From: Candidatus Adiutrix sp. | Lineage (GTDB): Bacteria; Desulfobacterota; Desulfarculia; Adiutricales; Adiutricaceae | Assembly: GCA_031263565.1 (NCBI GenBank) | Contig: JAISFR010000039.1 | Coordinates: forward strand, 1-53,934 | Length of the DNA: 53,934 nt | Direction: 5' to 3' | Shown: positions 483 through 17,277 of the stretch, in pieces | How positions within the stretch are numbered: the stretch's first letter is position 1 | Layout: every line of letters starts with the position of its first letter | The notes under the pieces: model-generated | The model's database searches: none | The model's input: the letters and a program-made list of their open reading frames with translations, nothing else | What the model was told of the DNA's origin: nothing | Translations under genes and position numbers: made by a program

Positions 483-938
483 ATGTATGAGGCCAAACTC
501 AAAGAAATGGGCATAGACCTGCCGGAAGCCGCGAAGCCTTTGGCGGCTTACATCCCGGCCGTCAAAGTCGGCGACTGCGTCTACAGCTCAGGGCAGATTC
601 CCCTGGTGGGGGGCGAGCTGAAATTCAAAGGCAAGGTCGGCGCGGAAATCAGCGAGGCCCAGGCTTATGAGGCGGCCAGAGTCTGCGCCGTCAACTGCCT
701 CAGCGCCATCAAAGGGGTGATCGGCAGCCTTGATCAAATCGCCCAGGTCGTCAAAGTCACCGGCTTTGTCAACAGCGCCCCCGGCTTTAACGCCCAGCCG
801 AAGGTCGTCAACGGCGCCTCCGAATTTTTGGGCGAAGTTTTCGGTGAAGCCGGCAGGCATGCCCGCTCCGCGGTGGGCGTCAGTGAGCTGCCCGTGGACG
901 CGGCGGTGGAAGTGGAAATGATCGTCAAGCTGAAATAA
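483..938 (+). CDS. RidA/YjgF/UK114-family protein (enamine/imine deaminase-like)
   Basis: The 151-residue product matches the slightly longer branch of the RidA family: an N-terminal helix with LKEMGIDLPEAAKPLAAY, then YSSGQIPL, a central region with VVKVTGFVNS, and the C-terminal block GRHARSAVGVSELPVDAAVE with the family Arg (in ARSAVGV) and a Glu in VEVEMI. RidA proteins hydrolyse reactive enamine/imine intermediates released by PLP enzymes, in the cytoplasm, usually as trimers. The start at 483 is chosen because AAGGAG lies about nine bases upstream; an in-frame upstream extension has no such site. Its place directly before a PLP enzyme gene fits a role in clearing or converting that enzyme's product. 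The substrate cannot be told from sequence. Confidence 0.88.
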   Translation: MYEAKLKEMGIDLPEAAKPLAAYIPAVKVGDCVYSSGQIPLVGGELKFKGKVGAEISEAQAYEAARVCAVNCLSAIKGVIGSLDQIAQVVKVTGFVNSAPGFNAQPKVVNGASEFLGEVFGEAGRHARSAVGVSELPVDAAVEVEMIVKLK

Positions 939-1023
939 TTTTTTTACCCAGGGGCTGATCGGCACCGATGAGCGGCCGGCCGTTTTCATCGCCCCGGATT
1001 GGTTGTTTGAAAGGAGAACCGCC

Positions 1024-2484
1024 ATGTCCAAATTCAAGTACAAGTATCAGATGTACAAACATTTACAGGCCAATATCCCCAACATCTACGCCGACCTGCG
1101 CAAGGCCGCCGAAGGCATCGGCATCCCGGCGGAGAAAAAGGGCGCCCTGGGCCTGACCGGGGCCATCTCCGGCTGCCCGGCCCCCTTACGCAAAGACATC
1201 ATGGAAGCCAGCGAAAAGGGCGCCCTCCAGGTCATCCCTCTGGCCACCCTGGTCGAGCAGATCCGGGAACTGGTCAAAGACGTTTACGGCGACGGCTATG
1301 ACGCCGCCCCCGTGTCCACCTGCGAAGCCGGGCTCTGGCTGGCCTTTGACAGCCTGTTCTCGCCCCCGGCTATGGGCCGCGGCGACAACTACCGGGCCCG
1401 CTACATCGCCCCCTACGAAAAGCACATGCACCACCAGGCCGGCTACGGCCGGCCCTTCCCGGCCAAATACAAAGACTTCATCGCCGACCGGGGCTCCACC
1501 GCCGGCGAACTGGGCTTCTACGGCAAGCGCCAGAACAACCTCGACACCGTGATCGTGCCTCTGCCCGGGGCCAGGTATGACGTCCACGGCATCAAGAGTC
1601 ACCCGGTGCCCCTCCTGACCGGGGTTGATCCGGACGCCGCCTGCGCGGAGTTGAAGAAAGTCGCCGAACGTCACGCCCCCCTGCTGACCGGCTTCACCTC
1701 CCTGGGCTACGACAGCCCCGGCTACGGTTATTCAGTCAAGGACAGCGACGGTGTGCCCAAGCTGCAGAAGAACATCGCCAAAATCGCCCAGCAGTACAAC
1801 GTGCCCTACGTGGTGGACAACGCCTGGGGCCTGCCCTTCGTCGGTTTCGACCTGCCCGGATCCGGGGCCGACGCCGTGGTCTACAGCATGGACAAAGCCA
1901 CCGGAGCGGCCACCAGCGGCCTGGTCATCGGCAAGGAAGAGGTCATGGTTCCCCTCCGCCGGGCCATGGGCCTTCACGGCGACCGCTGGGGCACCGGCGC
2001 TTCCTACGGCAAGGCCGCTTACGTCTGCTTCGACCCGGGCAAGGAAGCCCTGCTGACCCAGATTCAGGCCTTGAAGGTGCTGCGCGACCAGCCCGAAATC
2101 CTGACCGGACCGGTCGACGACCTGCATGAAATCGTCAAGGACGAATTCTCCAAGCTGCCCAAGAGCCTCCAGGAGGGCCTCCTGATTTCCAAGTCCTACA
2201 ATTCCACGGCCGTGGAAGTCAACTACGAAGGGACCTGGAAAGACGGCCGGATGGGCATTCCCATATTCTCCATCGAGGACATGTATTCCGGCACCAACCT
2301 GTTCCAGAGCGGCCTGGCCCAGATGGGGGTCATCCCCACGGTGGCCTATGACGGCAACATCTACATGTCCACCGGCCTGGCCACCACGGACGAAAAGGGG
2401 ACGCTCCTGGAAAAGGAAAGCCGCTGGTGCGTCAGGTCGCTGGTGAAGCTGATCGAAATCGTCTGCGAATACGCCGGCCTTTGA
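1024..2484 (+). CDS. Fold-type-I PLP-dependent enzyme of unknown substrate
   Basis: The product is 486 residues. It has the two landmarks of fold-type-I PLP enzymes: Asp265 in YVVDNAWG, expected to bind the pyridine nitrogen, and Lys291 in SMDKATGAATSG, the likely Schiff-base lysine. The N-terminal part (ALGLTGAISGCPAP and TCEAGLWLAF) provides a Gly-rich phosphate-side loop. It looks most like the aminotransferase-V/Cys-Met-lyase-like superfamily, but I cannot place it in a named family; decarboxylase, lyase, racemase and aminotransferase activities are all open. The ATG at 1024 has AAAGGAGA upstream and is preferred over the in-frame TTG at 1003. It follows the RidA gene and precedes a cobalamin enzyme, so a shared amino acid substrate is inferred. 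Confidence 0.8.
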   Translation: MSKFKYKYQMYKHLQANIPNIYADLRKAAEGIGIPAEKKGALGLTGAISGCPAPLRKDIMEASEKGALQVIPLATLVEQIRELVKDVYGDGYDAAPVSTCEAGLWLAFDSLFSPPAMGRGDNYRARYIAPYEKHMHHQAGYGRPFPAKYKDFIADRGSTAGELGFYGKRQNNLDTVIVPLPGARYDVHGIKSHPVPLLTGVDPDAACAELKKVAERHAPLLTGFTSLGYDSPGYGYSVKDSDGVPKLQKNIAKIAQQYNVPYVVDNAWGLPFVGFDLPGSGADAVVYSMDKATGAATSGLVIGKEEVMVPLRRAMGLHGDRWGTGASYGKAAYVCFDPGKEALLTQIQALKVLRDQPEILTGPVDDLHEIVKDEFSKLPKSLQEGLLISKSYNSTAVEVNYEGTWKDGRMGIPIFSIEDMYSGTNLFQSGLAQMGVIPTVAYDGNIYMSTGLATTDEKGTLLEKESRWCVRSLVKLIEIVCEYAGL

Positions 2485-2506
2485 GGTCTACGGGCTTGAC
2501 TCCACC

Positions 2507-2535
2507 GCCCCGGCCTTGGCTGGCCAGGCCGGGGC
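2507..2535 (+). other. GC-rich hairpin between the PLP gene and the 82-residue gene
   Basis: Nine-base perfect arms (GCCCCGGCC at 2507-2515 and GGCCGGGGC at 2527-2535) enclose TTGGCTGGCCA, which can add three more pairs. There is no T-run afterwards, so it is not a standard intrinsic terminator. It could protect the upstream messenger or partly separate expression of the two halves of the operon. Confidence 0.5.
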
Positions 2536-2594
2536 CGGACCTCACAGCCCTGAAGGATTTCCCGCCCGGCTTTATTTCATTATAGGGGAGGTGG

Positions 2595-2843
2595 ATGATG
2601 ACCGTGCCGGACGTGTTCGCCTACGTGCTCGACGCCCTGGACATAGAGACCCTCCTGGTCTGCACCAGCGAGGAGGAGGGCAAGCGAATCGCCCTGGAGC
2701 TGGCCAAGAAACTGGGCTTCAAGGACGTGGACATTGTTTTCATCAGGTTTCAGGGCTCCGGCGCGAGAGTCCGCCTCCGGGCGTACCTCAACCGGCCCGG
2801 CGACCAGTACGCCTGGCTCGATCTGGAAGACGCCGGGAGGTAA
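2595..2843 (+). CDS. 82-residue protein preceding the cobalamin enzyme; candidate small subunit
   Basis: No family is recognised. The start is supported by GGGGAGG about three to six bases before two consecutive ATG codons (2595 and 2598); the second may be used. The product begins with a helix (VPDVFAYVLDALDIETLLV), continues with a charged helix (EEEGKRIALELAKKLGF) and ends in strands (VDIVFIRF, ARVRLRAYL), suggesting a compact alpha/beta fold. Its stop is only seven bases before the next start. Small companion subunits are known for some B12 aminomutases (OraS of ornithine 4,5-aminomutase, about 120 residues), but I see no sequence match to OraS; the comparison rests on position only. Confidence 0.75.
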   Translation: MMTVPDVFAYVLDALDIETLLVCTSEEEGKRIALELAKKLGFKDVDIVFIRFQGSGARVRLRAYLNRPGDQYAWLDLEDAGR

Positions 2844-2850
2844 AGAACCG

Positions 2851-4671
2851 ATGCCGCCAAAAAAAGTCTTGCTGGCCCCGTTGGACCCGGTGCATGACAT
2901 CGCCCTGAAAATTATCAATCGCGGCCTGAGGGACGCCGGCTATGAAACGGTCATCCTGCCGCCGGACCTGCCGCCGGAGGAAATTATCCAGGCCATTATC
3001 GACGAAGGGGCCGAGACGGTTTTGATCAGCCGGACCTTAGGCTACGGCGTGGCCGAAGTCCTGGCCAGGTTCATTGACCTGACGGACGCGGCCGGCATTC
3101 GGGACCGGGTCAGGGTCGCGGTGGGCGGCATGGCCGTCCACCCGGAACTGGCCCAGGAACTGGGCTTTGACGCCGGCTTCGGCCCCGGCTCCACCGTTGA
3201 GGAAACCATCGCTTTCGTCGACGGCCGGGAATACGTCAAAAAATTCAACTTCGAACGCAAGCGTGAAGACGACCTGAGCGCCGGCTACAGCTATGAGGTC
3301 CGGCACAACCGCATCCGCGAACTGTTAGGCCGGATCACACCCCTGATTCTGGGCTGGGCCGAGGGCCTGACTTCGCCCGGAGTTCAAAGAGCGGCCGTGC
3401 GCGAAGAACTGTGGGACGTCAAGAAGTGGCGCGATCACGAGGAGCCCGAAGAATTTTTCGCCGAATACCCCAAATACTGCGAAGAGTCGGTGCGCAACTT
3501 TTATGAAAAGGGCCTCCTGCACCCCAAGACCCGCCTTTTCAGCCAAAAGGACGTGGAAAAACTCAAGGCCTATGTCCGGCGGTCCCGCCGGGACCTGCAA
3601 ACGCCCCATCTCCAGCACAAGCTGATTAAGCCGGTCATTTTCAACCAATACGGCACCGGCTGCCCCTATATGGACATCGCCCACATCAAGGCCAGCGAGG
3701 CCTACGGGGCCGACGGCGTGATTCACTTCGACCCCTCCTGGGGGGCCAGGACCGAGGGGCTTTACGACGGCTTCCTGACCCACCAGGAAGACGGCACGGT
3801 CATCACCCCGGCCAACCTCAACCGCATTTACCGGGCCCTGGAGTACGGCACCCTGTGGCAGGTGCGGGCCCACCGCGGGCTGAACAGCCCGGAAACCGTG
3901 GTCCTGGCCGGTAAAATCGGCGCCAACCTGACCAAGATCAACATCTGCTACGGTTCCCTGGGCGCGGGCACCGACCCGGCCCGCCTGACCGTGGACGCCA
4001 TTGCCGCCATCAAATACGCCGTCCAGTACCAGATGCCCTTTGACGTGGTCACCAATGAGGAACTCTGCGGCGTTCCGGCCCACAAGGCCCTGGCCGGCAT
4101 GCTCATCGTGGCCCACCTGGGGGCGGCCCTGGGGGGGCGGCCCATACTTCAGCCGCTGTTCTGTTTTTCGCCGGAAGTCATGATCGGCGGCCAGATGGAC
4201 GACAACTACGTTGATTTCAACGTGGCCAAAATTATGGCCCTGCGGGCCATCATGGACGCCCCCATCTGGCCCGGGGCCCCCATCGGCTTCCTGACCCAGA
4301 CCGAAGACCGGGTCCAGTCCAGCGCCTCCACCGCCTTCCACGCCAGCCTGGCGGCCATGCTGGAAGTGGACGCCATCTCCATCGCCTCCGCCGACGAAGC
4401 CTATTCCGGCGGGCCCATCACCGTGGCCTCGCGGATCGACACCCTGCGGGCGGTCAGCGAAGGCTTCCGCTTCTTTGGACATTCCCGGATGCAGGTCAGC
4501 GCCCAAGCCACAGAATGGGCTGAAAAAATGATCGAAGGCCTTGAAAGGGTCCTCCAAGCGGTCGCGGCCCGGGGCGACTTCGTTCAGGCTTTATATGACG
4601 GTCTCCTCGGCAGCCGGGAAGAGGGGGCCTATCCGGGCCGGGCGGGAGTCAATACGGTCGTCAAAAAATGA
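2851..4671 (+). CDS. Cobalamin-dependent mutase-like protein, fused B12 domain plus TIM barrel (glutamate-mutase-like)
   Basis: 606 residues. Residues 1-125 resemble the sigma/B12-binding subunit of glutamate mutase: His15 in DPVHDIA, a SRTLGYG loop at 60-66, VGG at 91-93 and GFDAGFGPGSTVEETI at 106-120. Residues about 190-560 resemble the epsilon-type TIM barrel, with WQVRAHRG near 336, ANLTKINICYGSLGAGTD near 355 and a Gly/Ala-rich VAHLGAALGG stretch. The combined length is close to GlmS plus GlmE (about 620), so a natural sigma-epsilon fusion is the best model. The motif Asp of DxHxxG is displaced (Asp12 is three, not two, residues before His15) and its Gly is Ala18. Substrate is unknown; carbon-skeleton mutase or aminomutase are both possible. 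Its stop overlaps the next start (ATGA). The start at 2851 follows seven bases after the 82-residue gene. Confidence 0.8.
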   Translation: MPPKKVLLAPLDPVHDIALKIINRGLRDAGYETVILPPDLPPEEIIQAIIDEGAETVLISRTLGYGVAEVLARFIDLTDAAGIRDRVRVAVGGMAVHPELAQELGFDAGFGPGSTVEETIAFVDGREYVKKFNFERKREDDLSAGYSYEVRHNRIRELLGRITPLILGWAEGLTSPGVQRAAVREELWDVKKWRDHEEPEEFFAEYPKYCEESVRNFYEKGLLHPKTRLFSQKDVEKLKAYVRRSRRDLQTPHLQHKLIKPVIFNQYGTGCPYMDIAHIKASEAYGADGVIHFDPSWGARTEGLYDGFLTHQEDGTVITPANLNRIYRALEYGTLWQVRAHRGLNSPETVVLAGKIGANLTKINICYGSLGAGTDPARLTVDAIAAIKYAVQYQMPFDVVTNEELCGVPAHKALAGMLIVAHLGAALGGRPILQPLFCFSPEVMIGGQMDDNYVDFNVAKIMALRAIMDAPIWPGAPIGFLTQTEDRVQSSASTAFHASLAAMLEVDAISIASADEAYSGGPITVASRIDTLRAVSEGFRFFGHSRMQVSAQATEWAEKMIEGLERVLQAVAARGDFVQALYDGLLGSREEGAYPGRAGVNTVVKK

Positions 4672-5729
4672 CCAACTTCATTATCGGGATTGCCGGCACG
4701 GCCAAGAATACCGGTAAAACCACGGCTCTGGCCGCTCTACTCAGCGAAATCAGGCCAGAGCCCGGCCCGACGACGGCCCTGACCAGCATCGGCTACGACG
4801 GCGAGCATTTCGACAACCTCACCGGTCTGCCCAAACCACGCATCTCAGTCGTCCAGGGCGAGATTCTGGCCGTAGCCGAACGCTGTCTTCATTCCGGCGA
4901 CGCGGCCCTGGAAGTGCTTCAAAAAACGGACCTCCCCAGCCCTTTGGGCAAAATCGTCATCGGCCGGGTGACCCGGCCGGGCCAAATTGTTCTGGCCGGC
5001 CCCAACAAGCGCCGCGACCTGGCCGCCATCATCGACCGATTCACCGAACTGGGCGCAGGGCTGACCATTGTCGACGGCGCCCTGAGCCGGATAGCCCCCC
5101 TGGCGGCCGCCCAGGCCCTTTTGCTTTGCACCGGCGCGGCCCGCCACCGCGATCTGAATCTTTTAGCCGCCGAAACCAAACTGGTGGTTGAAATTTTGAA
5201 AACGCCGGCTTTGAAAGAACGGGGACTGGCGGCCCGCTTGACTTCCGTTCTCAACCGGGCCGGCTTCGATCAGTTTATGGCCGCTGTCCGCAAGTCCGAA
5301 ACCATTCACCTCGACGGCATCTTCAGTGAATTGTACTACTCCGAATTTCTGGAACAAGCCGGGGATCTGGCCGGCCGGCGCCTGATTTTCGCCGACTCTG
5401 TCAAACTGCTGCTGTCCGGCGACGCGGGCGCCACCCGCCGCCTGATCGACGGCCTGAAAGCCAAGGGGATGCGGGTCGGGGTGGGCGCAGGCCCGAATCT
5501 GGCGGCGGTTGCGGTGAACCCCTATTACCCCAAATACCGTTACGATCTGAAAGAATACGAAGCCGCTTACGTGGACCAGGATGAACTGCTGGCCCGCCTG
5601 TCCGCCGGCCTGACCGTCCCGGTCTTCGATGTGGTCCGGCAGGGGGGGCGAGGCCTGTATGAGGCGCTTCTGGGTGAACATAATATTACTAAAGGGCCGG
5701 ACTGGTTTTCAAGATGGGGTAGTTTGTGA
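4668..5729 (+). CDS. P-loop NTPase, candidate reactivating factor of the cobalamin enzyme
   Basis: 353 residues with a clear Walker A, GTAKNTGKTT, at residues 10-19, and a Walker-B-like strand LTIVDGA near residue 132. No NKxD GTPase motif is evident, so an ATPase is more likely than a G3E/MeaB-type GTPase. The gene overlaps the mutase stop by four bases (ATGA), implying translational coupling. B12 radical enzymes commonly need an ATP- or GTP-driven reactivase (MutL/GlmL, MeaB, KamB/KamC, diol dehydratase reactivase); this position and the KNTGKT P-loop remind me of the KamB ATPase of lysine 5,6-aminomutase reactivase, but I cannot verify the homology. It is not the ASKHA-type MutL. The C-terminal third (NPYYPKYRYDLKEYEAAYVD) has no recognised motif. 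Confidence 0.72.
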   Translation: MTNFIIGIAGTAKNTGKTTALAALLSEIRPEPGPTTALTSIGYDGEHFDNLTGLPKPRISVVQGEILAVAERCLHSGDAALEVLQKTDLPSPLGKIVIGRVTRPGQIVLAGPNKRRDLAAIIDRFTELGAGLTIVDGALSRIAPLAAAQALLLCTGAARHRDLNLLAAETKLVVEILKTPALKERGLAARLTSVLNRAGFDQFMAAVRKSETIHLDGIFSELYYSEFLEQAGDLAGRRLIFADSVKLLLSGDAGATRRLIDGLKAKGMRVGVGAGPNLAAVAVNPYYPKYRYDLKEYEAAYVDQDELLARLSAGLTVPVFDVVRQGGRGLYEALLGEHNITKGPDWFSRWGSL

Positions 5730-5839: not shown

Positions 5840-6142
5840 ATGGAAAATAAATATCAAGTTTTGAATTATGGTACTGATCCAGGTGAAATCAGATACACAA
5901 AATGTCTGGAGGCCAAATTGCTCACCTTGGGACTAGGCTGCCACACCCGAGCGGAATTCAACAATCTTTTCGTCAACAGCGACTTTCAGCGTCAGAAAGA
6001 GCTTACTAGGATGGTCCCGCTTAAGCCGGCTTCAGCGGTTTCCAAAGTCCGCATACTTGGCAAAGAAGAGTTTCTTCGCCAAAAATTTGATGATTCGTAT
6101 GTTGCGGAGGTTCTTGGTTCTGATTGGATTGACCGGGTGTAA
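5840..6142 (+). CDS. Hypothetical protein, 100 residues
   Basis: Not recognised. AGGAG lies about seven bases before the ATG. The product is soluble, with two cysteines (in YTKCLEAK and GLGCHTR) and a basic central region. Base composition and codon use are visibly more AT-rich than in the operon before it and in larB after it. The gene is followed eight bases later by another unrecognised gene on the same strand, and the two look like a small acquired module. No toxin or DNA-binding motif can be named. Confidence 0.55.
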   Translation: MENKYQVLNYGTDPGEIRYTKCLEAKLLTLGLGCHTRAEFNNLFVNSDFQRQKELTRMVPLKPASAVSKVRILGKEEFLRQKFDDSYVAEVLGSDWIDRV

Positions 6143-6150
6143 GTAATCCC

Positions 6151-6858
6151 ATGCTTGAAACCGCCCCACGCCATAGTCTCGCTTTAGCAGAGTTGTTGGA
6201 CCGTATAGAGATTGACGTTCAACTACAAGACGCCTTGGGCAACAGCGAAATCGTCCGGCAAATAATAGATAATGCCGCCGGTATTTGTCAAAACCTGGCC
6301 GATATACGGCGTAACGGTAACCTTGAAAACATGGTCCGTGCCGAAGCAGCCTTACTTAGCCAGCATGTTGACTTAATGCGGGGGCGAACCCCAATCTGGC
6401 AGGAAGAATCTAACAGCCTGAATAAAGCCCAAAGAGAGATGGCCGAAGGCTGGCGCTGCTTGGATAACCTGATGCACGATATCGGCAAATACAATCAGGC
6501 TCAAGAGATTTACAATGTTAAAGCCAGAGATGGCTATCCCCAGGATGCGTTTAGAACTTATTGTGGGGGCCAGCACACTCGGCTCAGTAACTCGCTAAAA
6601 TCACCCTACAGCGACGAATTCAGAATGATCTTAAAGGCCAGGGATGACAATGTCCTGGCTATGCAGAAAAAATACATCGAACACCAGCGCGAAAAGCTCC
6701 CTGAGCCGGCCCAAACGGTAGGAACCGAGCTTGCAAAGTATCAGATCACAAGAGTCGGCGCAATAGCGGAATTAAAAAGACAACGCGAAATGGGGATCGA
6801 CCCAAAGTCCCAAGACCAGGCCAAAAGGAAAAAAAGTGATCGCGGGATAGATTTATGA
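6151..6858 (+). CDS. Hypothetical, mostly helical protein, 235 residues
   Basis: Not recognised. The sequence is rich in charged and amide residues and is predicted by eye to be almost wholly alpha-helical, with a strongly basic tail (KRKKSDRG). Cysteines occur at QNLADIRR-adjacent and TYCGGQH positions without a metal-site pattern. It starts eight bases after the preceding gene; there is no strong ribosome-binding site, so translation may depend on that gene. Lower GC than the surroundings points to horizontal gain. A structural, partner or immunity role for its neighbour is speculation. Confidence 0.55.
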   Translation: MLETAPRHSLALAELLDRIEIDVQLQDALGNSEIVRQIIDNAAGICQNLADIRRNGNLENMVRAEAALLSQHVDLMRGRTPIWQEESNSLNKAQREMAEGWRCLDNLMHDIGKYNQAQEIYNVKARDGYPQDAFRTYCGGQHTRLSNSLKSPYSDEFRMILKARDDNVLAMQKKYIEHQREKLPEPAQTVGTELAKYQITRVGAIAELKRQREMGIDPKSQDQAKRKKSDRGIDL

Positions 6859-10746: not shown

Positions 10747-11232
10747 ATGGATTTTTCATCTGAAATTTTTTTGCCGGGGGCGGCCGACACCTGGCGGGCC
10801 GGCTTTGGCCTGGGGCGCCGACTGGGCGATTTTCTTGGCCAGGGGCGTCTCTCCCTGCCCTTCCTGATCACTCTTTCCGGGGATCTGGGCGCGGGCAAAA
10901 CCACTTTCTGCCAGGGTCTGGGCCAGGCCCTGGGCATAATCGAACCGGGAGAAATAGTCAGCCCCACCTTCACCCTGGCCAACGAATACCACGGGCTGGT
11001 GGACATTTTCCATCTCGACGTCTACCGTCTGGAAAGTGTTGAGCAGTTCCGCGAGGCGGGCCTGGAGGAATATCTCTATCGTCCCGGCCTGAGCCTGGTG
11101 GAGTGGCCGGAAAAGCTGCCGGAGGATTTCTGGCCCGACAAGCGTCTGGACCTGGCAATCAGCTTCCAGGACGGAGGGCGGCTGTTAAAGGCCCTGTCCC
11201 GCCCGGCCGCGATTTTCAATATATTTTCATAA
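10747..11232 (+). CDS. tsaE: tRNA threonylcarbamoyladenosine biosynthesis ATPase TsaE
   Basis: 161 residues, usual for the family. Walker A GDLGAGKTT at 45-53, then SPTFTLANEY, the HLDVYRLES strand with the conserved DxYR, EYLYRPGLSLVEWPEKL near 115-130. TsaE binds ATP and works with TsaB and TsaD to make t6A at position 37 of ANN-decoding tRNAs. tsaB and tsaD are not in the window. The gene stands alone, read toward the convergent AarF-family gene that ends 40 bases later. No ribosome-binding site of note precedes the ATG, but no better start exists. Confidence 0.93.
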   Translation: MDFSSEIFLPGAADTWRAGFGLGRRLGDFLGQGRLSLPFLITLSGDLGAGKTTFCQGLGQALGIIEPGEIVSPTFTLANEYHGLVDIFHLDVYRLESVEQFREAGLEEYLYRPGLSLVEWPEKLPEDFWPDKRLDLAISFQDGGRLLKALSRPAAIFNIFS

Positions 11233-11272
11233 GATGGCTGACGGCGGCCGTTGCTCCGGCGGCCTCGGGCGG

Positions 11273-12991
11273 CTAAAAACGTTTATTCCTGAGAAAATCG
11301 TAGAGCAGCCAGAAGCCGACCAGAGCCGCGCCCAGAAAGCCCACCAGGCCCAGCACCGGCAGCCCGTTCCACTTGGGCGGAATGTCGGCGTGGATGACCA
11401 CCGAGGACCCGATGACCAGGGAGGCCAGGACGATGGCAAACGAGAGGCGGTAGCTGGAGCGGTCCACGGTCTGCCTTAAACCCTCCAGGCCTTCGACAAT
11501 GAATTCGCTTTTGAGGCGCCCGCTGCGTAGCATGTTGTAAAAAGGCTTCAGGTCATTGGGCAGCATCTCCAGAAAATCTTTGAAATCCATCAGCTCTTCG
11601 CCGAAACGCCTGAACCAGTAGCGGGGGTTGTAGCGCCGGCGGTACTGGTTGATGATGAAAGGCCGGGCCACCTTGACCAGGTCAAAATCCGGATCCAGTT
11701 GAAGACCCAGACCCTCCAGTTGGGTCAGCGACTTGACCAGCAGCAGCAGGTCCGGCGGCAGGGAGAGCCGATACTGGGCGGCCACGTTCAACAAGTCGTT
11801 CAAAATCTTGCCGATGTTCAGCTCTTTCAGGGGGCGGCCCAGGTTGGCCTCCAGAAAGAGATCGACTTCCACTTCCAGCCGTTCCCGGTCCGGGGGGCTG
11901 TCGCCGTCGGCCTTGACCAGTTTCAGAAGGGCGCTGGTCACGTTGCGGGGCTTTTTGCGCACTGCGGCCAGGGTCAGATCCAGGAGAATGTCCCGGGTCT
12001 GGCGGCTCAGGCGGCCCACCAGGCCGAAATCTACGAGCGCCGCCCGGGGGCCGGGCTGCACCAGAAGGTTGCCGGGATGCGGGTCGCCGTGGAAATAGCC
12101 GAAAACCATGATCTGCTCAAAGACCACTTCGGCCCCGAAGCGGGCCAGAGACGGCAGGTCGTAGCCGGCGGCTTTCAGGGCCTGGCTATCGTTGAACTTG
12201 AGCCCGTCCACCTTTTCCATGACCAGGACCCGTTCGCTGCAGAGCGAGCGGTAAATGCGCGGCACCTTGACTTTGGGGTTGGAGGCGTAAAAACGGCCGA
12301 AACGTTCCAGATTGACGGCCTCCAGGGAAAAATCCAATTCGGCGGTCAGGCCCCGGCCGAATTCCTCGACCAGGGCTGCGGGCCGGGCGCTGGCCAGGGC
12401 CGGCAGGTGTTTTTCCACCAGTTCGGCCAGGGCCAGAAGAATCTCCAGGTCGGTGGACACCTGCTTGCGCAGACCCGGCCGCCTGACTTTGATGACCACT
12501 TCCCGCCCGTCGGCCAGTTTGGCTCCGTGCACCTGGCCCACCGAAGCCGCGGCCAGAGGCGTGGGATCCAGAAAACACAGATCGCCCGAGGTGACGATGG
12601 GTTCCACAATCCTTTCCACCTCCTCGAACGGCATGGGCTGCACCGAATTCTGGAGCCGTGAGAATTCCTTGATATAGGCTTCGGGCATCAGGTCGTCACG
12701 GGTGGAGAGATACTGCCCCCACTTGATGAAGACCACGCCCAGTTCCTCGATGACCAGGCGGACCAGTTCCGGCCGGCTGAGCTGCCGGTCCTGGACCTTC
12801 AGGCCCACCAGCCCCCGGACGTGGTCCAGAAGGTCGGTCAGCCCCAGACGGACCAGAAGGTCGTCAAAGCCGAATTTGACCAGCACGGCCCCCACTTCCG
12901 TGGCCCGGCCCATGTGCCGGTATAAACGATTCAACTTGCTGAGGCCGGCGATGGCCCCATTGGAATTGCCGTCCGCCTGTTTCATGGACAT
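11273..12991 (-). CDS. AarF/ABC1/UbiB-family kinase-like protein
   Basis: About 572 residues. Conserved landmarks: the KxGQ motif in VFIKWGQYLSTRDDLMP, the Ala-rich nucleotide loop AAASVGQVH, KVRRPG, the catalytic-loop equivalent HGDPHPGNLL and metal-binding VDFGLVGRL. Two hydrophobic helices close the C terminus (IVLASLVIGSSVVI and LPVLGLVGFLGAALVGFWLLYDFL), placing it at the membrane. UbiB homologues support quinone-lipid biosynthesis through an ATPase activity; whether that is the job here (menaquinone, or another lipid) is inference. Start is uncertain among TTG 12997, ATG 12991 and ATG 12985; none has a strong ribosome-binding site. Convergent with tsaE, divergent from the membrane protein at 13124. 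Confidence 0.88.
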   Translation of the reverse strand: MSMKQADGNSNGAIAGLSKLNRLYRHMGRATEVGAVLVKFGFDDLLVRLGLTDLLDHVRGLVGLKVQDRQLSRPELVRLVIEELGVVFIKWGQYLSTRDDLMPEAYIKEFSRLQNSVQPMPFEEVERIVEPIVTSGDLCFLDPTPLAAASVGQVHGAKLADGREVVIKVRRPGLRKQVSTDLEILLALAELVEKHLPALASARPAALVEEFGRGLTAELDFSLEAVNLERFGRFYASNPKVKVPRIYRSLCSERVLVMEKVDGLKFNDSQALKAAGYDLPSLARFGAEVVFEQIMVFGYFHGDPHPGNLLVQPGPRAALVDFGLVGRLSRQTRDILLDLTLAAVRKKPRNVTSALLKLVKADGDSPPDRERLEVEVDLFLEANLGRPLKELNIGKILNDLLNVAAQYRLSLPPDLLLLVKSLTQLEGLGLQLDPDFDLVKVARPFIINQYRRRYNPRYWFRRFGEELMDFKDFLEMLPNDLKPFYNMLRSGRLKSEFIVEGLEGLRQTVDRSSYRLSFAIVLASLVIGSSVVIHADIPPKWNGLPVLGLVGFLGAALVGFWLLYDFLRNKRF

Positions 12992-13123
12992 CCCCAAGGC
13001 TGCGGAAGCCTGATATTGTTTTTTCGATCGCTTTCGGCCCCGGCCCGGGGCGGGACTATTGAAGCCGAAGCCAGCTTATGGTAGCATGAAACGTATTGGC
13101 CTGCCACAAGGAGATTATAAAAT

Positions 13124-14725
13124 ATGCTGTTCAGGAAAAAATCCCCCCCCCGGGGACAGGACCAGGTTTTGGCGAAAACGGCGAGCGATGAGGATGACCC
13201 CCTAACTGGTCATGTTCAGGCGGCGGAATCCGCTTCTGAGGCCGCGCCGGCGGCTCCCGCTCCAAGTCCGGCGCCCCGGACGCCGGCCCCCGAAGCCGAA
13301 GCGACCGTTGCCGCGCAACCGGCGGCGCCGGTTTCGCAAGCTCTGCTGGACATCCGGGAGGCCGGCCTGACTCCCGAAGAAGCGGCCGAAGCCTCCAAGG
13401 CCCTGGCTGAGGAAAATCAGAGAAAAGAAGCCGCGCCCAAGGCCGCCAGGCCGGCCTCGAAAAACCATTCCAGCGGCCGGGAAGGGGCTGAAAAACTGGT
13501 GCTCATCGCCCGCTTCCGCTGGACCCTATTGCTGGTTCTGTCTCTGGCCTCGGTTTTGACCTGGGCCGGCGAGGCCGCCTATGCCCATCGGCCCTATCAG
13601 TGGTACGCCTGGGGCTGGCTGGCCCTGACCCTTTTGATCACCCTGCCCACCGGCCGTTTTCTGCGCCTGCCGACCCGCGGCGGCCTGGCCGCCTGGTGCT
13701 GGGCGGCCACCTTTTTCCTGGAAGCCCTCTACGGCCCGGAGGAGATGATTTTCCGCGGCATTCCCGCCGCCCTGCCCTGGGCCGGCCTGTTGGTCCTGAT
13801 ACTTTTCTGGCTGGGCGTGGCCATCTGGCGCAAGCTGGGCCGCTACAAGGTGGTGGATATCCTTTTGTCGGTCCTGGTGGTCTATGCCCTCCTGGGCCCG
13901 GTTCTGGCCCTGACCGGCAGCGTCACGGTCGGCGGCGCCCTGAATCTGAAATTCGCGGCCCTCAGCGGCAGTCCGGATCTACTCAGCCGCAATCTGCCCT
14001 GGTTTTTATGGCCCATGAGCGTTATGGTCGGCCTGATGCTGCCCCTGGCCGCCCTCTTCTCTCTGGGAGATCAACTGAGCGCCCTTAAGCGCAAGGGCGG
14101 CCGTCACGGCGGCAATTTTTTTCTGGCCCTGGCCTTTCTGACCCTGATCCCCTATGGCTTTTTGAGCTTTGACCGGGCGGTGGGCGAGAACCCCGAATGG
14201 GCCCGGGCCATCCGCTCCATCTGGCCGGAGGCCGCGGTCCACGCCCGGGAGAATATGATTCCGGTTCCGGCGGCCATGCGCCCGGCCGCTATGACGGAGA
14301 ATCCGGAAGACCGCGAGCCGGAAATCTCCCCGCCCCCGAGCCCGACCGTCCAAAGCCTTCCGGAAGCTTCCGTTCCGGTTTTGGCGGCCCCGGAAGAGGT
14401 TTTGCCGACCCCGGAAGAGGCCGGGCCCGCGCCGGCCGATAATGAGGCCCTGAAGCGCCGGGTCGACGAACTGGAAAAACGCCTCCAGGCGCTGGAAGAC
14501 CGGCTCTCGGAGGCCGCCCCGGCCGAAGCGTTGCCCCCGCCTCAGACCCTTGAGACCGAAGCCCGCTCCCCGGCCGCCCCGGAGCCTTCCCCGGAGGACG
14601 AGCTTGAAAGACGCCTGCGGGTTTTGGAGGAAGGGTTCCTGGAGGCGCCCGGGGCCAGGCCCGCGGAGCCTGTTGCGGAGGTCGGCCCGGCCGCGCCCCC
14701 GGCCCTGGACGACGGGGCGGAATAA
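13124..14725 (+). CDS. Multi-pass membrane protein with long Ala/Pro/Glu-rich tails
   Basis: 533 residues; function not recognised. Residues about 25-115 are a low-complexity, Ala/Pro/Glu-rich cytoplasmic-type segment; residues about 125-355 hold six or so hydrophobic segments (for example LLLVLSLASVLTW, LALTLLITLPTG, LPWAGLLVLILFWLGVAIW, VVDILLSVLVVYALLG, FFLALAFLTLIPYGFLSF); the rest is Pro/Glu-rich and contains a coiled coil around EALKRRVDELEKRLQALEDRLSEA and a near copy, DELERRLRVLEEGFLEA. AAGGAG precedes the ATG by about eight bases. It is isolated: divergent from the AarF-like gene and convergent with the permease. The coiled coils suggest oligomerisation or a partner protein. Confidence 0.75.
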   Translation: MLFRKKSPPRGQDQVLAKTASDEDDPLTGHVQAAESASEAAPAAPAPSPAPRTPAPEAEATVAAQPAAPVSQALLDIREAGLTPEEAAEASKALAEENQRKEAAPKAARPASKNHSSGREGAEKLVLIARFRWTLLLVLSLASVLTWAGEAAYAHRPYQWYAWGWLALTLLITLPTGRFLRLPTRGGLAAWCWAATFFLEALYGPEEMIFRGIPAALPWAGLLVLILFWLGVAIWRKLGRYKVVDILLSVLVVYALLGPVLALTGSVTVGGALNLKFAALSGSPDLLSRNLPWFLWPMSVMVGLMLPLAALFSLGDQLSALKRKGGRHGGNFFLALAFLTLIPYGFLSFDRAVGENPEWARAIRSIWPEAAVHARENMIPVPAAMRPAAMTENPEDREPEISPPPSPTVQSLPEASVPVLAAPEEVLPTPEEAGPAPADNEALKRRVDELEKRLQALEDRLSEAAPAEALPPPQTLETEARSPAAPEPSPEDELERRLRVLEEGFLEAPGARPAEPVAEVGPAAPPALDDGAE

Positions 14726-14824: not shown

Positions 14825-16237
14825 TTACATGTAAGCTTTTTTGAAGGCTTCGGGCACTTCCTTATAGCCGTTGGTCTTCACGTAGCCCACGACCAGGCCG
14901 ACGGCCAGCCAGCCGAAGCCCACCGCCTGGGTCAGCCAGTCGAAACCGGTCCAGACGTAAATCAGAATGCCCGCCCCGATGGCCGGGAACAGCAGATAGC
15001 GGACAAAAGCCAGACCGCCCCGCTGTTTTTCCAGGACAAAAAAGAACCAGAACACGGCGAAATTCAGCATGATAAAGGAAGTGATGGCCCCGAAGTTGAC
15101 CAGCCGGGCCAGGCCGTCGACCGTGAAGATCAGGGCGCAGGCCATGGACAGGGCGCCGATGAAGGTCACCCCGGCGTAAGGGGTCTGGTACTTGGGATGA
15201 ATCCTGGATAAAAATTTAGGCAACAGCGAATCCCGCGACATGGAGAACAGCACCCGGCTGCAGGCCGCTTGGGCGTTCAGGGTATTGGCTATGCCCACGG
15301 CCAGAATGTTGACCACCAGAAGAAGAACCCGGAAACCGTGGCCCAGGGCTTTTTCCATGACGTCAAAAAAAGCCGTCTCCGGATTCAGTTTTTCCCAGTT
15401 CGGCTCAATCAGGGAAGCCACATAGGTCTGGGCCAGAAAAACCGTTCCGATAATGGCCAGGGCGATGAGAATGGCCCAGCCGACATTCCTTTCCGGCTTA
15501 TGGGTTTCCTCGGCCAGGGTGCTGATGCCGTCAAAACCCAGATAATTCAGGGCCGCGATGCTGCAGGCCGTGGCAATGAAGGCGAAATTGATCCGGTCCG
15601 GCTGATAGAAGGGATCGATGGTCAGCCGGCCGGCCCCGCCGCCGTCGCCGAGCACATACATCAGGCCGCCGATGACAATGGCCAGCACAATGCCGATTTC
15701 CACGATGAAAAAGACAAAGTCGGTCTTGGCCGTGAACTCGATGCCGCGAATGTTGATGACCGTGTTGATCACGATAAAGAACAGAATCCAGCCCCAGATG
15801 GGGATGCCGGAATACAGTTCCTCACACCAGACGCCGACCAGAAGATACAAAAGGCCGGGCACAAAGACATAGTCCAGCAGAATCAGCCAGCCGGCGATGA
15901 AACCCACATGGGGATTTATGCCGTGCTGCACATATGAATAAACCGAGCCGGCAATGGGAAATCGGCGCGACATCCGGCAGTAGCTCAGGGCCGTAAAGAA
16001 CATGGCCGTAAAACCGACCAGATAGACGAACGGGGCCATGCCCCGGGAATCGGCGTTGACGAAGCCGTAGATGCTGTGAGGGGCGATGATGACCATGAAC
16101 AGAAGTCCGTAGACGGTCAGATCCCACAGGCTGAGCACCCGCTTGAGCTGAGGCTGGTAGCCAAACCGCTCCAAATGCCTGGCGTCCTGATTCAACTGGG
16201 CCTCGTCTGACAAATTGACATTTTCAGAATCAGTCAT
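14825..16237 (-). CDS. APC-family amino acid/polyamine permease (PuuP-like)
   Basis: 470 residues with about twelve hydrophobic helices. The stretch INPHVGFIAGWLILLDYVFVPG and the preceding RRFPIAGSVYSYVQ closely resemble the putrescine importer PuuP and related APC permeases, as do LGFDGISTLAEET and the RVLFSMSRD segment. Such proteins are proton-driven importers in the cytoplasmic membrane; the substrate (amino acid or polyamine) is not determined by sequence. AGGAGAG precedes the ATG. It follows an acetamidase/formamidase gene on the same strand with an 86-base gap that carries an 18-base repeat, so co-expression is possible. Uptake of an amino acid or amide for fermentation is a reasonable inference. 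Confidence 0.9.
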   Translation of the reverse strand: MTDSENVNLSDEAQLNQDARHLERFGYQPQLKRVLSLWDLTVYGLLFMVIIAPHSIYGFVNADSRGMAPFVYLVGFTAMFFTALSYCRMSRRFPIAGSVYSYVQHGINPHVGFIAGWLILLDYVFVPGLLYLLVGVWCEELYSGIPIWGWILFFIVINTVINIRGIEFTAKTDFVFFIVEIGIVLAIVIGGLMYVLGDGGGAGRLTIDPFYQPDRINFAFIATACSIAALNYLGFDGISTLAEETHKPERNVGWAILIALAIIGTVFLAQTYVASLIEPNWEKLNPETAFFDVMEKALGHGFRVLLLVVNILAVGIANTLNAQAACSRVLFSMSRDSLLPKFLSRIHPKYQTPYAGVTFIGALSMACALIFTVDGLARLVNFGAITSFIMLNFAVFWFFFVLEKQRGGLAFVRYLLFPAIGAGILIYVWTGFDWLTQAVGFGWLAVGLVVGYVKTNGYKEVPEAFKKAYM

Positions 16238-16267
16238 TTCTTTACTCTCCTGGTATCTTAGAGGCTG

Positions 16268-16285
16268 TATTGACAGAGCCTTAAT
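16268..16285 (+). repeat. 18-bp repeat, copy 1
   Basis: TATTGACAGAGCCTTAAT, identical and in the same orientation at 52947-52964. Both copies lie just 3' of a minus-strand catabolic gene (the acetamidase here). In this copy, flanking AGG and the internal CTGT/ACAG allow a small hairpin. Confidence 0.6.
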
Positions 16286-16323
16286 ACCGCTTAAATTCGT
16301 AATTCAGGACCTCAGTTGAGTTT

Positions 16324-17202
16324 TCAAATCAACGGTTTTCCCGGGATCTTGGGTATGCCGAGGCGCAGCACCAGGGGCACCGGGCAGGGCTGGCAGGCCT
16401 GGTTGATTTCCAGATCGCCCCAGAGGGAAAGGTAAAAATAAGCGTCGGTGACGTCCCAGCCATAAGCTTTGGAAATAAGTTCCTGCATCTGCCTGGAGGC
16501 CCAGGTCAAAGCCTTGGTATAGTCAAGGTCGGAAGCCATGACATACCACTTGTCAGCCGTTTCCAGAACCGGCCAGTCCAGCCTGGTCTTCTTGATCAGG
16601 CCCAGTACGGCGGTCACTTTACCGGCGATTTCCAGGCCCGTGCCGCACAGTTCGCCGTCACCCATGACCGCGTGCAAATCGCCCAATTGGAAAAGAGCCC
16701 CGGCGGTCCGCACCGGGAAATAGGCTTTGGCCCCGGCTTCCATCAGTTTTGAATCCAGGTTGCCGCCGTGAGAGCCCGGAAAGCCGCAAGGCACGGACCC
16801 CTTTTCCGGCGCCACCCCGATCACCCCGACCATGGGGCGAACGGGCATTTTCAGACCGTTGAATTCCGTATAGCCGCCCGACAATTTCAGAACTTTGGTC
16901 CGCACCGCCATCCGGTCAGCCAGAGGCCCGACCTCCGGCAGGGTGGTGACCACGCCGTGGCCGGCCACCTCAATGGACTTGATATCGGCGGTGAGAATGT
17001 CGCCAGGTTCGGCCCCGGTCAGATAAACCGGCCCGGAAGCCGGATTGGCCCGGTTGTAGTCAAAAGAGGTTATGAGCTGGTCCTCTTTCTGAATTTCATT
17101 GGAAAAACAGTCCAGGGTTTCAAAAGTCAGGGTCTCTCCGGGCTCGGCGTCCTTAACTGGCCGGTTTTTCGGATCAAAGGCGTAGACGCAGGAACTGATC
17201 AT
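16324..17202 (-). CDS. Acetamidase/formamidase family protein
   Basis: 292 residues, the family's usual length (about 300). Seen: TLDCFSNEI and SGPVYLTGAEPGDILTADIKSIEV near the N terminus, PVRPMVGVIGVAPE, CGFPGSHGGNLDSK and LGDLHAVMGDGELCGTGLE, which are the family's conserved blocks with the metal-binding His/Asp set. Members hydrolyse formamide or short-chain amides to ammonia and the acid. ATG 17202 is chosen because GGAG lies eight bases upstream; a longer in-frame start lacks this. Lies between a Sel1 protein and the PuuP-like permease on the same strand. The natural substrate is not known. Confidence 0.88.
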   Translation of the reverse strand: MISSCVYAFDPKNRPVKDAEPGETLTFETLDCFSNEIQKEDQLITSFDYNRANPASGPVYLTGAEPGDILTADIKSIEVAGHGVVTTLPEVGPLADRMAVRTKVLKLSGGYTEFNGLKMPVRPMVGVIGVAPEKGSVPCGFPGSHGGNLDSKLMEAGAKAYFPVRTAGALFQLGDLHAVMGDGELCGTGLEIAGKVTAVLGLIKKTRLDWPVLETADKWYVMASDLDYTKALTWASRQMQELISKAYGWDVTDAYFYLSLWGDLEINQACQPCPVPLVLRLGIPKIPGKPLI

Positions 17203-17277
17203 AAGGGCGACTCCTTTCAGTTTATTTACGGATTTTACGGCAGTCCGGCTAAAATTCAACAAATTTCGCGGGTGATT

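Follow-up and report, generated by a model that had tools for sequence, protein, structure and literature searches.

A conserved pyridoxal phosphate and cobalamin gene cassette with a putative permuted relative of lysine 5,6-aminomutase in a Candidatus Adiutrix genome

Few adenosylcobalamin (AdoCbl)-dependent aminomutases are known. In the class III enzymes lysine 5,6-aminomutase (LAM) and ornithine aminomutase (OAM), pyridoxal phosphate (PLP) is bound through a lysine located 11 residues past the cobalamin-binding histidine and through Arg184, Gly187-Gln188-Ser189, Ser238, and Arg268, with Tyr263 stacking on the cofactor (PMC3958899). His182 of OAM holds the substrate carboxylate (PMC3958899), and Glu338 contacts the adenosyl group (PMC4413051). 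Here we analyse a gene cassette within 53,934 nucleotides of Candidatus Adiutrix sp. (contig JAISFR010000039.1, assembly GCA_031263565.1), hereafter the window. The cassette encodes a putative mutase related to LAM, in which five known PLP contacts appear to have been lost and the adenosyl-contacting glutamate kept.

Five open reading frames (ORFs), all on the forward strand, occupy positions 483-5729, as reported in a preliminary description made from the sequence alone. Successive gaps measure 85, 110, and 7 bp, and the final pair overlaps by 4 bp. The encoded proteins are a RidA-like protein (P0002), a PLP enzyme (P0003), an 82-residue protein (P0004), a fused B12-TIM protein (P0005), and a P-loop protein (P0006). 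A sixth member of the set, omitted from that description, encodes a DUF6917 protein at 2-442 on the forward strand (Pfam PF21891, E=6.6e-48); base 1 of the window falls within this gene, and its 5' end is cut by the contig edge. The GC content of the cassette region is similar to that of the remainder of the window.

The mutase P0005 (606 aa; 2851-4671, forward strand) begins with a B12-binding Rossmann domain (2851-3243; Pfam B12-binding, E=1.5e-16), followed by a C-terminal TIM barrel (3244-4671) that an AlphaFold2 (AF2) model, fold matches, and hhalign relate to KamD and OraE. Both the mutase alignment and the model, whose mean predicted local distance difference test (pLDDT) score is 79.5, were built from 14 Bacillota orthologues. 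The B12 domain finds its best matches in KamE and OraE (KamE beta-subunit profile, E=3.7e-13), with a fold match spanning residues 1-127, and contains His15 (in the motif DPVHD), Ser60, and Gly92-Gly93. DPVHD is invariant across the family; the residues that follow are [VI]G, but IA in the window copy. The same domain also matches the corrinoid proteins of methyltransferases, so P0005 might be a corrinoid methyltransferase or a B12-dependent sensor instead of an isomerase. We consider this very improbable given the stronger KamE and OraE matches, the LAM-like barrel, and the retained adenosyl-contact glutamate and co-conserved KamB-like reactivase described below.

The 475 residues of P0005 that follow the B12 domain are without a match among the Pfam and NCBIfam models. 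In structure comparisons the barrel lies closest to the alpha subunit of LAM (8t0v_A, Z=31.2 over 393 residues; 1xrs_A, Z=30.9), ahead of glutamate mutase (Z=26.0) and OAM (Z=25.0). A barrel profile aligned by hhalign against KamD and OraE sequences, drawn from the carrier genomes and their class, gave E=1.7e-6, compared with 0.59 for the reversed control and roughly 0.4-0.6 for reversed profiles overall. Hidden Markov model (HMM) searches with the barrel likewise scored real sequences above shuffled ones. The preliminary description had left room for the mutase to prove a characterised enzyme; in a homology search, the curated aminomutase models fell far under their cut-offs on the window proteins (NF040743, 42 bits against 800; NF052385, 49.7 against 280), and a Pfam scan of the same proteins gave no match to PF09043. 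A relationship between the barrel and GlmE was also considered, but sequence comparison gave no significant signal (hhalign E=0.05, reversed control 0.41; PF06368 unmatched in Pfam). As a separate observation, genomes G484, G442 (contig C197), and G500 contain frames of 540-580 aa that match the GlmE family weakly (E 1e-5 to 6e-4); these are neither clear GlmE proteins nor cassette mutases, and may be another type of barrel.

P0004 (2595-2843, forward strand) appears to supply the remaining class III domain, the KamE/OraE-type dimerisation domain, as a free-standing protein. The Pfam model OAM_dimer (D-ornithine 4,5-aminomutase dimerisation domain) matches eight of the 15 P0004 orthologues (best E=9.1e-5), the window protein itself scoring below the cut-off, and hhalign of P0004 against the dimer region of KamE and OraE gave E=4.4e-5 (reversed controls, 0.19). 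A six-frame search placed the gene immediately 5' of the mutase gene at each of the 14 original loci and at 16 of 17 further mutase loci; the same search did not find it in locus L135. A seemingly fused dimer-B12-TIM chain in L132 was rejected as an out-of-frame ORF extension. On domain homology, P0005 is thus assigned as a divergent relative of LAM and P0004 as that family's dimerisation domain in free-standing form. Because all three class III domains are present, but ordered dimer | B12-TIM, the predicted arrangement amounts to a circularly permuted version of the TIM-dimer-B12 order of known enzymes, with a newly placed gene break.

The active site was compared in 15 sequences by counting residue equivalents without gaps from neighbouring conserved motifs, the Glu338 motif being located via the primers given in PMC4413051. 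At the Schiff-base position (His+11; Lys144beta or Lys629), which is lysine in all four KamE and three OraE sequences compared, the cassette mutases have leucine (14 of 15) or valine (one). The other contacts are replaced in all 15 cassette mutases: Arg184 by Asp294, Gly187-Gln188-Ser189 by Trp-Gly-Ala, Ser238 by Arg342, and Arg268 by alanine or glycine. Two positions are kept and invariant, namely Tyr367, equivalent to the PLP-stacking Tyr263, and Glu516, which aligns with the adenosyl-contacting Glu338. The pocket region also contains invariant H292, R300, R339, H341, R342, and K362, the last of which we infer to be equivalent to OAM His182. We read the pocket as one in which an anion-binding site has supplanted the PLP site of class III, in an enzyme that would still be of the radical AdoCbl type.

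Without conservation of the class III PLP site, the mutase cannot be classed with confidence as a PLP/B12 aminomutase of the classical kind. An aminomutase acting on an amino acid or diamine could still use both cofactors if the pocket had been rebuilt, with K362 or K460 (or no lysine at all) forming the internal aldimine, Arg342 opposite the pyridine nitrogen, and the phosphate lying against the Ser296-Arg300 loop. LAM is, after all, the closest fold, the stacking tyrosine is invariant, and both the dimer domain and the KamB-like reactivase belong to the aminomutase type. Against this stands the replacement of five separate LAM/OAM contacts in 15 of 15 sequences, including that of Arg184 by an aspartate, together with the missing lysine at His+11, and we regard such an enzyme as unlikely, though it is the alternative to which we give most weight. 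Loss of the PLP site would also suit a carbon-skeleton mutase resembling glutamate mutase and acting on an acidic amino acid, in which the Arg/His cluster would serve as a carboxylate claw. By alignment, the invariant R339-A-H341-R342, R300, K362, and H292 lie near the barrel mouth, and the fold matches glutamate mutase at Z=26.0; the GlmE profile comparison, however, is not significant, in contrast to that with KamD/OraE, and the reactivase is KamB-like, not MutL. This second alternative is accordingly rated as improbable.

We favour, with slightly better than even confidence, a model in which P0004 and P0005 form an AdoCbl radical isomerase derived from the class III fold by permutation and re-tooling, maintained by a KamB-like ATP-dependent reactivase, with separate processing by the PLP enzyme, RidA, and a flavoenzyme. 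In this model, cobalamin would be bound base-off with His15 as ligand, and cleavage of the Co-C bond to the adenosyl radical would be helped by Glu516. The substrate that the isomerase then rearranges would be a small anion, in all likelihood an amino acid, bound by H292, R300, R339, H341, R342, and K362; the PLP aldimine known from class III would probably play no part. Damaged cofactor would be swapped by P0006. The fold-type-I PLP enzyme, DUF6917, an FAD (flavin adenine dinucleotide) oxidoreductase, and RidA may act before or after the isomerase, the flavoenzyme and RidA presumably converting an amine or enamine into an oxo acid and ammonia, by way of imines or enamines that are set free and hydrolysed. 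Gene content, co-conservation, homology, the permutation, and the loss of the class III PLP residues are read from the sequences themselves, whereas AdoCbl chemistry, reactivation, the direction of the pathway, and an acidic substrate are predictions. As a weak lead to the substrate, the basic pocket points to an amino acid of the acidic or dicarboxylic kind. KamE and OraE are present alongside the cassette in some carrier genomes, which argues weakly against lysine and ornithine as substrates and indicates that the cassette is not simply a replacement for those enzymes. A bolder proposal, which we hold only tentatively, is that the permuted, PLP-less enzyme performs a new radical rearrangement, PLP chemistry having passed to the fold-I enzyme and DUF6917.

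Several points weigh against the favoured model. The similarity of the barrel to KamD/OraE is remote, with 17% identity and an E value (1.7e-6) from a single hhalign pair; since the equivalences rest on short gap-free stretches, residue assignments may be locally off. PLP could be bound through other residues, such as Ser296-Trp-Gly-Ala-Arg300, Arg342, and Tyr367, with K362 or K460 as the lysine. P0003 yields no family-level reaction, and the FAD oxidoreductase and RidA may be auxiliary, as they are missing from some loci.

The P-loop protein P0006 (353 aa; 4668-5729, forward strand; motif GTAKNTGKTT) is, by family assignment, a KamB-like reactivase. It scores 208.7 bits against the KamB model NF052386 (E=1.1e-61; cut-off 210), and its orthologue in L034 reaches 210.8 bits; the P-loop is retained in all 14 orthologues. 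No gene of KamC size recurs beside the cassette at the surveyed loci, a genome-wide search with the KamC model not having been made. P0003 (486 aa; 1024-2484, forward strand) is a fold-type-I PLP enzyme by structure matches (AF2 model pLDDT 76.5), with Asp265 and Lys291 invariant across orthologues. Its Pfam and NCBIfam matches are weak, the best NCBIfam scores being to the DgaE-type model (38.6 bits) and D-glucosaminate-6-phosphate ammonia lyase (26 bits), far under the cut-offs. Assignment of a reaction from its fold was abandoned, as matches tie at Z ~21-22 across transaminases, aldolases, and desulfurases. P0002 (151 aa; 483-938, forward strand; PF14588, E=1.1e-25; PF01042, E=4.4e-17) is a RidA/YjgF-family protein and a probable imine/enamine deaminase. 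The arginine of its motif HAR-S/A-A-V-G-V, which we take to be the equivalent of Arg105 in Escherichia coli RidA, is kept in the orthologues. DUF6917 resembles OrtA by eye, a homology that was rejected: reversed controls gave better values than its hhalign E of 0.016, and its HMM scores were no higher than those of shuffled sequences.

The survey of conservation drew on 398 genomes of the Bacillota phylum that includes Desulfotomaculum copahuensis. Of these, 39 contain the mutase barrel and 40 a strong match to the PLP enzyme, 39 having both (Fisher p=2e-53, a value that ignores the relatedness of the genomes). The preliminary description of a PLP and cobalamin cassette is upheld by this, and the genes are conserved as a unit. 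In the 14 original loci, P0004, P0005, and P0006 stand together or nearly so, the reactivase of L045 lying 4.5 kb further on. P0003 is found in 11 of these loci and in all 14 of the genomes, DUF6917 and RidA in ten loci each, a helix-turn-helix (HTH)-FCD regulator in all 14, and the FAD oxidoreductase in ten; some surveyed loci are cut by contig ends. The same companion genes occur in 19 further regions around the PLP gene. DUF6917 adjoins the PLP gene in many loci and is present in most orthologous ones. The preliminary description had asked whether the genes might occur apart. The set stands together in many genomes, and in two Fermentithermobacillaceae-like genomes (L145 and L147) the DUF6917-PLP pair is intact with the mutase elsewhere; L128 and L140 are mutase-free regions, each carrying a second copy of the PLP gene and of the FAD gene. 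Because the genes recur together and the DUF6917-PLP pair is sometimes apart from the mutase, gene context identifies the set as one putative functional unit with a separable DUF6917-PLP sub-unit.

The genomic surroundings of the pair in L145 and L147, where NagZ-, AnmK-, and DppA-like ORFs lie nearby, raise the prospect that the pathway serves turnover of D-amino acids or cell-wall amino acids (for example diaminopimelate or D-glutamate) and not fermentation. This alternative concerns the substrate and is compatible with the other readings. Several Thermoanaerobacterales cassettes also follow a D-Ala-D-Ala carboxypeptidase-like ORF; all these neighbours were named by inspection of their sequences, without a family search. 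The neighbours are, however, divergently transcribed or in housekeeping order, such that the link may be accidental, and other loci have no such neighbours. We judge a role in D-amino-acid or cell-wall amino-acid turnover to be improbable.

Other genes recur near the cassette. A transporter gene near many copies matches no informative Pfam or NCBIfam family. No riboswitch was found on the cassette itself. Lysine riboswitches occur only away from it (L133 and L137), and we take these to belong to a nearby lysA-like gene; one cobalamin riboswitch lies downstream in L143 (11191-11401), where it precedes cobalamin-type ABC transporter-like ORFs of the kind also found 3' of the cassette in L041 and L044. 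In L128, L129, L130, L132, L136, and L138, the cassette or its PLP and FAD part adjoins HdrABC-like, hydrogenase/flavin-oxidoreductase (Flx-like), and CaCA antiporter-like ORFs; these neighbours are possibly the electron sink of the FAD oxidoreductase. In some Thermoanaerobacterales, the reactivase is followed by a ProC/prephenate-dehydrogenase-like NAD(P) oxidoreductase of 225-230 aa, which could be another pathway enzyme (L038, 5019-5714; L039, 12560-13237; L126, 17235-17924; L137, 1478-2158). The gene for a sulfide/dihydroorotate-dehydrogenase-like FAD/NAD protein of the PRK05802 type (L126, 18026-19000, with similar genes in ten loci) adjoins that of the FAD oxidoreductase or of the mutase, and in many cases runs in the other direction.

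The window copy probably reached its host by horizontal transfer from Bacillota. In a tree of 32 mutases it nests inside a 15-row Bacillota clade (100/99 support), on which we base this proposal. Within its own phylum the barrel was found in the genome of the window alone (one of 395 genomes), and none of 36 same-genus or same-family genomes searched contains the full-length mutase protein. In the source genome, contig C21 begins with the window. Contig C110 (14,316 bp) ends with an FCD regulator (12445-13236) and the 5' part of an FAD oxidoreductase (13783-14316), which is 62% identical and truncated where the contig stops. C110 and C21 may be neighbours, in which case the whole set would be present in the organism. 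Upstream of the regulator, the C110 locus (L125, 1384-13236) contains a Pfam-confirmed LarA lactate-racemase homologue (11143-12417) and ORFs resembling a TRAP-type transporter, a GntR-type regulator, a uroporphyrinogen-decarboxylase-like protein, and a B12-domain protein. In the window, two ORFs of 100 and 235 aa without assigned function directly follow the cassette (5840-6858); homologues were not seen at the Bacillota loci, although no search was aimed at them. Further downstream, adjoining ORFs on the reverse strand (14825-17262) resemble an amino-acid permease and an acetamidase/formamidase.

A search of open-access literature turned up no account of either the cassette or DUF6917, and as far as that literature shows, the cassette appears to be undescribed, as do the substrate and chemistry of its mutase. 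The unusual and conserved gene set of the preliminary description stands; the specific amino-acid or diamine fermentation or rearrangement route it had proposed is unproven. If the bolder proposal is correct, a PLP-less permuted enzyme would define an undescribed amino-acid pathway in about one tenth of the sampled Bacillota genomes. A widespread permuted branch that has erased the PLP site, and kept the adenosyl-handling residue and the reactivase, would test whether class III radical chemistry needs PLP. It would also expose an anaerobic amino-acid route in Bacillota that spreads by horizontal transfer. With its PLP, RidA, flavoenzyme, and DUF6917 partners, the pathway lends itself to testing as a whole.

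The locus had been described as unlike OraSE/OrtAB/Ord, KamDE/KamBC, and GlmSE/MutL. In gene content this holds; the mutase module, however, is not unrelated to these systems, being a putative permuted KamDE/OraE relative accompanied by a KamB-like NTPase. P0003 shares the Asp-(25)-Lys PLP core of the fold-I group that includes DgaE, SelA, SepCysS, and the Cys/Met enzymes, but scores far below the family cut-offs and, at ~490 aa, carries a long N-terminal extension. GlmSE/MutSE with MutL likewise provides an AdoCbl TIM-barrel mutase without PLP, and has an Arg/His motif similar by eye but not significantly so by profile; its reactivase and partner genes differ, and overall profile similarity is not significant. 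OraSE, with Ord and OrtAB, shares the three OraE domains, the Glu338 equivalent, and the companionship of a small protein and a PLP enzyme. OraE, in contrast, is a single TIM-dimer-B12 chain with its PLP site intact, OrtB is threonine-synthase-like (fold II) whereas P0003 is of fold I, and OrtA has no detectable profile homology to DUF6917. KamDE with KamB and KamC differs in its order (TIM | dimer-B12, against dimer | B12-TIM in the cassette), in the PLP lysine and four other PLP contacts that the cassette mutase lacks, and in the cassette's pathway genes (DUF6917, RidA, the fold-I PLP enzyme, and the FAD oxidoreductase). The two systems nevertheless have in common homologous TIM barrel, B12, and dimer domains, a KamB-like reactivase, and the positions of the adenosyl-contact glutamate and the PLP-stacking tyrosine.

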